From assembly GCA_019116965.1 (NCBI GenBank), contig DXAT01000070.1:1-37948 (forward strand): 37,948 nt of DNA, read 5' to 3'. The translations under genes were made by a program, and so were the position numbers. The DNA comes from Candidatus Coprenecus pullistercoris. GTDB lineage: Bacteria > Bacteroidota > Bacteroidia > Bacteroidales > UBA932. Numbering within the stretch: position 1 is the first letter of the stretch; each line of letters opens with the position of its first letter. Positions 31,396-33,456 of the stretch are shown one piece after another. The notes below the pieces were generated by a model. It did no database searches and had not been told where the DNA came from. It saw nothing but the letters and a program-made list of their open reading frames with translations.

Positions 31396-32685
31396 CTAAA
31401 GACCGAATTCCTTATGTATCAGGTCTACGGAGTCGAGGAGTTCCCATCCGAAGAACTGGAGCTCTTTCTCCACTTTTCTGCCGTCGCGTATAAGCTCCAC
31501 CTTACGCTTGAAAGGATCGCGTCCGAAGTGGCCGTAGGATGCAGTAGGGAGGTAGATAGGGTTTCTGAGCCCGAAACGCTCTATGATTGCTGCTGGGCGC
31601 AGGTCAAACAGCGTGCGTATCCGTGCGGCAATCTCTCCGTCTGTAAGTCCGACCTTGGATGTGCCGTAAGTGTTGACGAAGATGCTCACAGGCTCGGCGA
31701 TTCCTATGGCGTAGGCCAGCTGGATGAGAATCTCGTCGGCGACTCCGGCTGCCACCATATTCTTGGCGATGTAGCGGGCTGCGTATGCGGCCGAGCGGTC
31801 CACCTTGCTGGGGTCCTTGCCTGAGAAGGCTCCGCCTCCGTGAGCCCCCTTGCCGCCGTATGTGTCCACGATAATCTTGCGGCCGGTGAGTCCTGTGTCT
31901 CCGTGAGGGCCTCCGATGACGAACTTGCCGGTAGGATTGACATGCAGGATGAAATTGCCGTCAAAGAGGCGGCGGGTCCTTTCTGGAAGACGGGAGATGA
32001 CTCTGGGGAGGAGGATTTTCTCTATATCCTCCTTTATCTTGCTCTGGATTGCCGCATCGTTTTCCGGTGTGCCGGGAATCATACCGTCGGCTGCCGGAAA
32101 GTCATCGTGCTGTGTGGAAACGACTATGGTGTGAACTCTGAGCGGATGATGGTTGTCATCGTATTCAATGGTGAACTGGGACTTGGCGTCCGGACGGAGG
32201 TAAGGCATAAGCTGCGGTTCCTCGCGGCGTATTTTAGCCAGCTCTATCAGAGTGATGTGTGCAAGAGTAAGAGGCAGAGGCATGTATTCTTCGGTGTCGT
32301 TGCAGGCGTATCCGAACATCATGCCCTGGTCTCCGGCACCCTGCTCTTCCCTGACCTCGTTGACGACTCCCCTGTTGATGTCGGGGGACTGCTCGTGCAG
32401 GGCCGAGAGTATGCCGCAGGACTTGGAATCGAACATATAGTCGGCCTTTGTGTAGCCGATACGGTCTATGACTCCTCGGGCCACATGCTGTATGTCCACA
32501 TATGCGTTCTCTGAGCGTACTTCGCCGCAGATGACGACGAGTCCTGTGCTGACAAAGGTCTCGCAAGCTACTTTCGCGTCCGGATCCTGGCGCAGGAAGT
32601 CATCGAGGATAGCGTCAGAAATCTGATCGGCCACTTTGTCAGGATGGCCCTCCGAAACAGATTCTGAAGTGAAAAAGTATGACAT
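31396..32685 (-). CDS. metK: S-adenosylmethionine synthetase
   Basis: MetK makes S-adenosylmethionine from methionine and ATP. The 429-residue protein begins [25 protein letters not shown], with the substrate-binding GHPDK, and has [15 protein letters not shown] and [23 protein letters not shown]. The start at 32685 matches the family N-terminus; the longer upstream frame runs into the attenuator hairpin. A roughly 150-nt leader holds a SAM-II-like aptamer and a terminator hairpin, so the product very probably shuts off its own gene. It converges with comF. Confidence 0.97.
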
Positions 32686-32701
32686 GATATAAGTGCTTAT
32701 A

Positions 32702-32743
32702 AAAAATAAATCTCTTCCGTGTGAGTTTACGGAGAGATTTGAC
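32702..32743 (-). terminator. Attenuator hairpin in the metK leader
   Basis: Minus strand: AAATCTCTCCGT (32740-32729) pairs with ACGGAAGAGATTT (32720-32708) with a single bulge, followed by ATTTTTTAT. It ends about 20 nt before the metK start codon, so it acts inside the leader rather than at a gene end. The 9 nt GTCAAATCT (32743-32735), covering the 5' half of the stem, are exactly complementary to AGATTTGAC in the upstream aptamer, giving mutually exclusive folds. Confidence 0.72.
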
Positions 32744-32761
32744 AAAACACTAACTGTATGA

Positions 32762-32818
32762 AAGATTCATTTTAGCATTTTTTACCGTGGTTGCAAGCAG
32801 TCAAATCTGTCCACAAAC
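32762..32818 (-). promoter_or_regulatory. SAM-II-type riboswitch aptamer upstream of metK
   Basis: On the minus strand UUGUGG (32816-32811) pairs with CCACGG (P1). The loop contains the SAM-II hallmarks GAUUUGA and CUUGCAA; after P1 come an A-rich segment and the conserved GCUAAAA (32776-32770). The UGC there can pair with GCA of the loop as the pseudoknot. Order and spacing match the SAM-II (metA) riboswitch as I remember its consensus. It lies between the metK promoter and the attenuator hairpin. No covariance-model search was possible, so the class call is by eye. Confidence 0.75.
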
Positions 32819-32842
32819 TCTGCTCTTCTCCCGAAAAGCGCC

Positions 32843-32880
32843 GCAAAGATGAAAACAATTTTCCAATTCTCCAAATTTTT
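32843..32880 (-). promoter_or_regulatory. metK promoter, near-copy of the tRNA-Gly promoter
   Basis: The minus strand has AATTTGG (-33 TTTG) and, after 20 nt, CATCTTTG, one mismatch from TAnnTTTG. The whole 38-nt block matches 37080-37117 on the plus strand with only 2 differences. Transcription would start near 32838, leaving about 150 nt of leader for the riboswitch. Confidence 0.75.
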
Positions 32881-32935
32881 TATTGTCTCTCTTCTTATTT
32901 TCATAGAGCCTGGCTCTGAATAGAAGTATTTTGGT

Positions 32936-32943
32936 TATCTTTG
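32936..32943 (+). promoter_or_regulatory. Promoter -7 box of the yraN-manC-arcA-pheS run
   Basis: TATCTTTG is an exact TAnnTTTG match, placing the start near 32950. This rules out the TTG at 32941 as start codon of yraN and favours ATG 32962. The -33 region is not clear. The four genes that follow are spaced 6-18 nt apart and probably share this promoter. Confidence 0.55.
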
Positions 32944-32961
32944 CACATTATACCGGAATGT

Positions 32962-33456
32962 ATGAGGAGAAGAAGGAGGATGCAGGGACCCGGACCGGTC
33001 AATGTGGGCGGAACGGGACGGAAGAGAAAGCCGGGGAGGGCGGTGACGGCATGCACTGTTCCGGCAGACAGCAGGCAGGCGGTCGGAAAATTGGGAGAGG
33101 ATACCGCTTTGGAATATCTTTTGCGGGATGGATTCAAGTTGCTTGAGAGGAACTGGCGCTGCCGCTACAAGGAAATCGACCTGATACTTGCCGATAAGGA
33201 CGGTCTCCATATCGTTGAGGTAAAGACGAGGACTCTTCCGCTTGCTGCCGACCCGGAACAGGCGGTGGACAGGTGCAAGCAGGCCAACCTTGAGGCCGCG
33301 GCAAGTGCGTATCTCAGGATGAGAAAACTGGACTGCGACATACATTTCGATATCATGTCCGTAGTCCTGGAACCGGAAGGAGGTGTCAGACACATCAGGT
33401 TTATCAGGGATGCTTTCCTGCCGATAAAGGATAGAAGACAAGACATTAACATATAA
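32962..33456 (+). CDS. yraN: YraN family (UPF0102) putative endonuclease
   Basis: A 164-residue protein whose core (from about residue 38) is YraN: RQAVGKLGEDTALEYLLRDGFKLLERNWRCRYKEIDLILADKDGLHIVEVKTR. The E-x-D-L-I..VEVKTR pattern is that of a restriction-endonuclease-like fold; family function is not established. The N-terminal 37 residues (Arg-rich, then Gly/Pro-rich) are longer than usual for a protein normally near 120 residues. ATG 32980 is an alternative start, but it too leaves an extension. Nine nucleotides separate it from the guanylyltransferase gene. Confidence 0.85.
   Translation: MRRRRRMQGPGPVNVGGTGRKRKPGRAVTACTVPADSRQAVGKLGEDTALEYLLRDGFKLLERNWRCRYKEIDLILADKDGLHIVEVKTRTLPLAADPEQAVDRCKQANLEAAASAYLRMRKLDCDIHFDIMSVVLEPEGGVRHIRFIRDAFLPIKDRRQDINI

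Follow-up and report, generated by a model that had tools for sequence, protein, structure and literature searches.

The window analysed here is the whole 37,948-nt stretch of Candidatus Coprenecus pullistercoris contig DXAT01000070.1. On its minus strand it carries, in this order, a Bacteroidetes-type promoter, a 5' hairpin (P0), a SAM-II aptamer, an anti-aptamer segment, an intrinsic terminator and metK, as read from the sequence and the list of open reading frames (Table 1). Both promoter elements were named after TTTG / TAnnTTTG, which we take to be the Bacteroidetes promoter consensus. Across the intergenic stretch lies an open reading frame on the plus strand (32941-33456), presumably YraN-like, and since it is directed away from metK, metK is most likely the gene served by this leader.

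Table 1. Features of the metK leader in the window, in order of transcription
Feature	Position	Strand	Evidence
-33-like element TTTG, Bacteroidetes-type promoter, separated by 20 nt from the -7-like element	32872..32875	-	sequence
-7-like element CATCTTTG, 7/8 match to TAnnTTTG	32844..32851	-	sequence
5' hairpin P0, GCUUUUC / GAAGAGC	32822..32839	-	folding, genus leaders
SAM-II aptamer RF01726; P1 32815-32811 with 32790-32786; GCUAAA 32776-32771	32762..32820	-	covariance model
Antiterminator 5' strand: 5' flank GAGUUU, P1 5' strand and GAUUUGA core	32800..32820	-	folding, comparative
UUAGUGUUUU, pairs in the antiterminated fold with aptamer AAAAUGCUAA (32781-32772)	32744..32753	-	folding
Antiterminator 3' strand, overlapping terminator 5' arm and loop	32723..32743	-	folding
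Intrinsic terminator hairpin, 12 bp, one bulge, loop AAACUCAC	32708..32740	-	folding, -12.7 kcal/mol
U-tract AUUUUUU	32701..32707	-	sequence, folding
metK, S-adenosylmethionine synthetase, 429 aa and stop; ATG at 32685-32683	31396..32685	-	ORF list; NCBIfam TIGR01034 match, 507.7 bits

Related leaders were compared at the level of genus, family and order. The genus set comprised 18 leaders from 19 genomes searched, the one genome lacking a match being 87% complete. Family leaders came from 107 listed places in 102 of 119 genomes, with 10 further genus leaders added, and the order leaders were 74 of the best-scoring places outside the family (genome G088 left out) and not a random sample. We searched 160 nt of leader for terminators and duplexes and 130 nt for antisense matches. 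A terminator was called where the stem reached -6 kcal/mol or better and was more stable than all of 20 shuffles; near misses, for example L040, L051 and L027, were counted as having none.

The promoter element differed in prevalence between these groups. Within the 65 nt around the aptamer 5' end, exact TAnnTTTG was present in 96 of the 99 other family leaders and in 60 of the 74 from the order, compared with 5% in shuffles, and in only one of the 18 genus leaders. P0 probably lies close to where the transcript begins and is perhaps a 5'-end stabiliser. Double changes that keep pairing were found at two of its five consensus pairs (13 leaders), and the same two pairs were broken in three leaders each. 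The stems of P0 were changed yet mostly still pairing in most genus leaders, for example GCUUUUC/GAAGAGC in the window and ACAUUUCC/GGGAAUGU in L048.

The aptamer is a member of the SAM-II family. Rfam model RF01726 ("SAM-II long loop") matched full length at 32820-32762 on the minus strand; it scored 61.7 bits, well above the gathering score of 44 (E-value 1.1e-9 when the whole window was scanned), no non-standard pairs were flagged, and this was the single match in the source assembly (91.7% complete). GAUUUGA, UUGCAA and GCUAAA stand in SAM-II order around P1. A preliminary description, made from the letters of the window, had placed SAM-II motifs in the metK leader and had named the covariance model as a check; the motifs lie on the minus strand where it had put them, and the model agrees. 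Among the eight matches from a scan of 32500-33000 (E <= 10), RF01726 was the best and the SAM-V family was absent, and SAM_alpha (RF00521) was rejected as a better family at 18 bits against a cut-off of 36.

One helix of the aptamer is weak across the genus. In 14 of 18 genus leaders the distal P2b pairs CUG with UGA through two wobbles, while the GCA/UGC side of the P2 pseudoknot is present by sequence. Three Watson-Crick pairs in distal P2b were found in none of the 18 genus leaders and none of the 98 other family leaders scored, compared with 36 of 74 order leaders; CUG/CAG, UUG/CAA or UUG/CAG stood there in 46 of 74 order leaders. Most of these 98 family and 18 genus leaders read CUGCUUG in the loop. 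SAM-V is a related pseudoknot which, according to PMC2704228, lacks the final 3' pairing, and that pairing is weak in the window too. The genus alignment shows an aptamer core that is largely invariant and flanks that are variable. SAM binding by this aptamer, the direction of the switch and the efficiency of termination are inferred.

The terminator (32740-32701) lies between the aptamer and metK. None of 20 shuffles was as stable as the native stem. Its 5' arm is 12 nt long (32740-32729), and the metK ATG lies 22 nt past the hairpin end at 32708, a little beyond the spacing of about 20 nt first given for this hairpin, and 76 nt past the end of the aptamer model. A pattern scan for terminators did not list the window hairpin, probably because of its bulge.

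The same 119 nt, from aptamer to U-tract, can fold in a second way. The minimum free energy (MFE) structure is one long hairpin of -30.7 kcal/mol (z -3.37; none of 200 shuffles as stable) that contains a 20-bp antiterminator, formed by 32820-32810 with 32733-32723 and by 32808-32800 with 32743-32735. The second of these blocks is the complementarity reported in the preliminary description, AGATTTGAC with GTCAAATCT, which is exact over its 9 nt. That account had the 9-mer covering the 5' half of the terminator stem; it does overlap the arm but takes up only six of the 12 nt of 32740-32729. It also understated the extent of the antiterminator, which keeps the nine core pairs and is about twice as long, using the aptamer 5' flank and 3' strand as well. 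Within the aptamer, the antiterminated fold dismantles P1, the core and the 3' strand; within the terminator, it occupies 11 of the 12 nt of the 5' arm together with six loop bases. In the window, the duplex between leader and aptamer had a z of -2.6 against shuffles, with one in 100 as good.

These are two mutually exclusive folds, and their energies are unequal. With P1 and the terminator enforced, the leader reached -24.3 kcal/mol, a value that includes the AAAAUGCUAA/UUAGUGUUUU hairpin and excludes the pseudoknot and SAM, so that the MFE prefers the antiterminator by 6.4 kcal/mol. With the MFE favouring the antiterminator, the OFF state would rest on SAM and on the order of folding, neither of which is part of these folds. 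In folds of the growing chain, the antiterminator started at 85 nt and was full length at 98-100 nt. The folds give no support for an early P1: the MFE at 60 nt (-5.2) is a weak local hairpin other than P1, with -4.2 when P1 is enforced. Folds of growing length give two exclusive end states, and an aptamer-first order would follow from the order of transcription and from SAM, judging by the riboswitch class and the target gene.

The alternative pairing is conserved and co-varies in relatives. A terminator was called in 18/18 genus leaders, each a stem followed immediately by a tail with at least six T in eight. At least seven contiguous Watson-Crick pairs linked terminator and aptamer region in all 18, and at least nine did so in 12; in the remaining six, an A-to-C change in the aptamer shortens the 9-mer to seven. 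Loss of the complementarity in relatives had been named in the preliminary description as evidence against its reading, and what we find is that the link and the terminator are kept throughout the genus, the full nine pairs in only two-thirds of it (12/18). UUAGUGUUU was found in 18/18 genus leaders. Exact 7-mers antisense to the aptamer core were present in 11 of 11 distinct genus leaders, compared with 0.5 in shuffles. The MFE of the whole leader was the antiterminator in 13 of 18 genus leaders and the terminator in five (L050, L076, L077, L188 and L190), and each of these five has a mismatch in the helix between aptamer flank and terminator loop.

Co-variation was seen in that flank-loop helix, whose two sides are constrained neither by the core of the aptamer nor by the stem of the terminator. 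GAGUUU pairs with AAACUC in the window, AACAGAUU with AAUCUGUU in L048, GACGAAUU with AAUUCGUU in L183 and AACGAGUUUU with GAAACUCGUU in L075, and changes on both sides keep the helix between the window, L048 and L183. Flank and loop registers appear to shift between leaders in the MAFFT alignment (A1), so pairs were not counted on it. Loops and flanks were permuted. For 12 distinct pairs the summed energy was -65.2 against a permuted mean of -43.6, with 23 of 100,000 permutations as good by energy and 66 by helix length; when each distinct loop was entered once (10 rows), these became 45 and 327 per 100,000, in a permutation that ignores kinship. In the metK tree, the closest rows to L048 and to L183 carry a different flank as well as a different loop, some of the branches concerned being weakly supported. 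As a model the leader is concrete and mutable, and the co-variation of flank and loop separates antiterminator from aptamer function.

This match has exceptions: besides the five leaders with a mismatch, four genus leaders (L060, L186, L182 and L194) have a flank-loop helix of only 2-3 bp, and in these four the antiterminator is still the MFE structure, through the core. The P0-like hairpin is missing in L060, L186 and L182, and L194 folds otherwise, across the promoter element. The short helix combined with the lack of P0 in these leaders (and the different fold of L194) suggests that the antiterminator was once shorter and gained its 5' extension later.

Swapping aptamers between leaders gave a different picture for the core, the only region covered by this energy test of 162 leaders. 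In the genus, the own aptamer was not preferred over others (-14.31 own, -14.43 others) and the own leader was (-11.56 for other leaders); wherever the aptamer does not vary, the core pairing has no room to co-vary. A mild preference for the own partner appeared among the remaining family leaders (-12.94 own, -12.04 with other aptamers, -12.69 with other leaders) and in the order (-12.29 own, -11.48 with other aptamers and -11.48 with other leaders).

The match between terminator and aptamer could be an accident, with the arm of an ordinary terminator looking by chance like a complement of the aptamer. We matched 495 distinct terminator-like hairpins from elsewhere in 151 sequences (436 kb, both strands) to the window leader; 10 reached at least eight contiguous Watson-Crick pairs and five at least nine, in a scan that trimmed the window's own hairpin to a score of 8 (9 with the full arm). 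Hairpins behind TGCTAAA did so more often, with at least eight in 13 of 53 and at least nine in 5 of 53. Five of the 10 matches (L009, L045, L058, L205 and L214) read as antisense strands of SAM-II leaders, and discounting these gives a chance rate of about 1% at eight pairs (2% before the discount) and about 0.2% at nine. Against an accident stand the conservation in 18/18 genus leaders and, with changed sequences, in several other genera, the 20-bp extent in the window and the co-variation of loop with flank, on which grounds we rejected it as barely credible.

We propose, with a probability of roughly 0.84, that the window leader is a SAM-II (long-loop) riboswitch acting as a transcriptional OFF switch on metK, with SAM binding and termination predicted from the leader. 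At low SAM, 32743-32723 would pair with the aptamer 5' flank, the P1 5' strand and the GAUUUGA core, and UUAGUGUUUU with AAAAUGCUAA, leaving the leader as one long hairpin that would sequester the terminator 5' arm and part of its loop, so that metK is transcribed. At high SAM, the aptamer, which is transcribed first, would fold as a pseudoknot around SAM and withhold both strands; the terminator could then form and end transcription upstream of metK. The preliminary description had likewise set aptamer and terminator against core-arm pairing, and folding, conservation and co-variation support this exclusivity. Its observation is confirmed as real and is stronger than first reported, and its interpretation (aptamer class, terminator and exclusive pairing) is supported.

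Two other readings differ on what the leader does. The switch might work mainly on translation or mRNA stability, with a hairpin 22 nt upstream of the start hindering the ribosome rather than ending transcription. The hairpin is indeed close to the metK start, many relatives keep the aptamer without a terminator and 27 of 107 family leaders have the start codon directly behind it, and a 2024 review places SAM-II under direct occlusion (PMC10907184). However, occlusion would not need the stem and T-rich tail found in every genus leader, and the metK start codon lies outside the hairpin, so we consider this reading rather unlikely. Alternatively, the aptamer may have decayed or no longer bind SAM, leaving a constitutive attenuator, which would fit the weak distal P2b of the genus and the antiterminator fold being the MFE in the window. 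Such decay is unlikely, and decidedly so, given a match of 61.7 bits with core residues kept, an aptamer in 18 of 19 genus genomes (the exception 87% complete) and a genus alignment in which much of the core is invariant while the flanks change.

The riboswitch reading of the window has precedents in part. The preliminary description called SAM-II best known from proteobacterial leaders; surprise at finding it in Bacteroidales does not hold, since Rfam already covers SAM-II of Bacteroidetes and it was in print in 2005, 2007 and 2010 (PMC1273637, PMC2258182, PMC2864571). Corbino 2005 (PMC1273637) reports SAM-II from the Bacteroides group, B. thetaiotaomicron among its members, and notes that many SAM-II RNAs are followed by putative terminators. 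Weinberg 2010 (PMC2864571) lists RF01726 for "Bacteroidetes, marine", with the same aptamer sequence, layout and Bacteroidetes host as the window; its accessible text gives the family and taxa and refers details to an additional file, without the terminator/antiterminator pair that the window has. In Alphaproteobacteria (PMC9373788), as for SAM-II more broadly (PMC1273637), SAM-II aptamers followed by a putative or predicted terminator have the OFF logic proposed for the window. Of these, metZ of S. meliloti is predicted to terminate on SAM binding, and a short RNA whose size would fit was observed (Scheuer 2022, PMC9373788); it stands in another phylum and has another target gene. Direct-occlusion SAM-II of the metX type (PMC10907184) shares the aptamer class and resembles family members with the start behind the aptamer, unlike the window, where metK starts well downstream, behind a terminator. 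Within the open literature searched, we found no description of how a Bacteroidetes SAM-II controls its gene, nor of an antiterminator design or platform change in Bacteroidales, and the term SAM-II occurs zero times in the main text of an RNA-seq survey with Bacteroides data. Bacteroidales SAM-II and, in Proteobacteria, terminator-coupled SAM-II are already known, and the variety of outputs is more interesting.

What follows the aptamer differed among relatives that share it. Of 99 other family leaders, 23 had a terminator, 27 had the metK start against the aptamer, 48 had neither and one was not scorable, and no terminator was called in any of the 74 order leaders (best-scoring places; one not scorable). 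Among the leaders sampled, the terminator form is restricted to the genus and part of the family. The 5' arm shared eight or nine contiguous Watson-Crick pairs with the aptamer region in 11 of the 23 non-genus terminators (L081 and L082 among them being identical copies from one genome); the other 12 had no eight-pair Watson-Crick link to it, and seven of these reached at least eight when G-U pairs were allowed. Changes on both sides also occurred outside the genus, with GTTCAAATC facing GATTTGAAC in L114 and, in L101, GTCAAATCC facing GGATTTGAC (GGAUUU with AAAUCC).

In the 27 leaders where metK abuts the aptamer (L036, L034, L128 and 24 others), the start codon followed GCUAAA at 0 nt in nine, at 1-4 nt in 16, and at 11 and 14 nt in two. 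GCUAAA presumably contacts SAM, and with the start codon directly behind the aptamer, ligand binding would itself cover the start. The host organisms are said to use few Shine-Dalgarno sites. On well-supported branches of a metK tree of 113 rows, at least five changes were needed for the abutting type and at least two for the aptamer-matched terminator type, a label assigned by hand on a tree whose bootstrap is unsettled.

Terminator-less leaders may carry an anti-aptamer strand as well. Exact 7-mers antisense to the core were found in 31 of 72 order leaders, compared with 14.1 (sd 3.1) in shuffles, and in 32 of 70 family leaders outside the genus, counting those with a terminator, compared with 14.3 (sd 3.0). 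The order leaders are C-rich and G-poor, with C exceeding G in the first 45 nt in 69 of 73. We note that in order leaders L002-L031 and L138-L181 no terminator was called, yet antisense 7-mers were enriched. It is possible, as speculation, that SAM binding exposes a Rho site in the terminator-less order leaders.

We tentatively suggest, at somewhat short of even odds, that one Bacteroidales SAM-II aptamer has been wired to at least three outputs that were repeatedly interchanged. These would be a terminator with an antiterminator complementary to the aptamer, occlusion of a start mostly 0-4 nt behind GCUAAA, and terminator-less leaders that keep an antisense strand to the core. The anti-aptamer strand common to them would be ancestral, and where there is no terminator, SAM binding would lay bare a strand rich in C and poor in G, to which Rho could be recruited. 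The family offers a natural series, with the same aptamer coupled to termination, start-codon occlusion or neither, in which the evolution of riboswitch output is testable. A phylum sample of 148 genomes gave RF01726 in 21, every one of them in the class of the window.

Two smaller observations concern what follows the aptamer. A six-codon frame, MNLSYS or MILSYS, stands directly after GCUAAA in 14 of 18 genus leaders (window 32770-32750, minus strand), and its start is at the spot of the metK start in some other genera; since its bases also serve the inner hairpin, conservation alone is no proof of translation. Finally, metK lay downstream in 179 of 181 leaders (107 family and 74 order), one miss being a contig end. 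The other is L175 (G083:C269), from a genome with a second SAM-II match; here the aptamer precedes an open reading frame other than metK, whose N-terminus reads like that of methionine synthase MetH.
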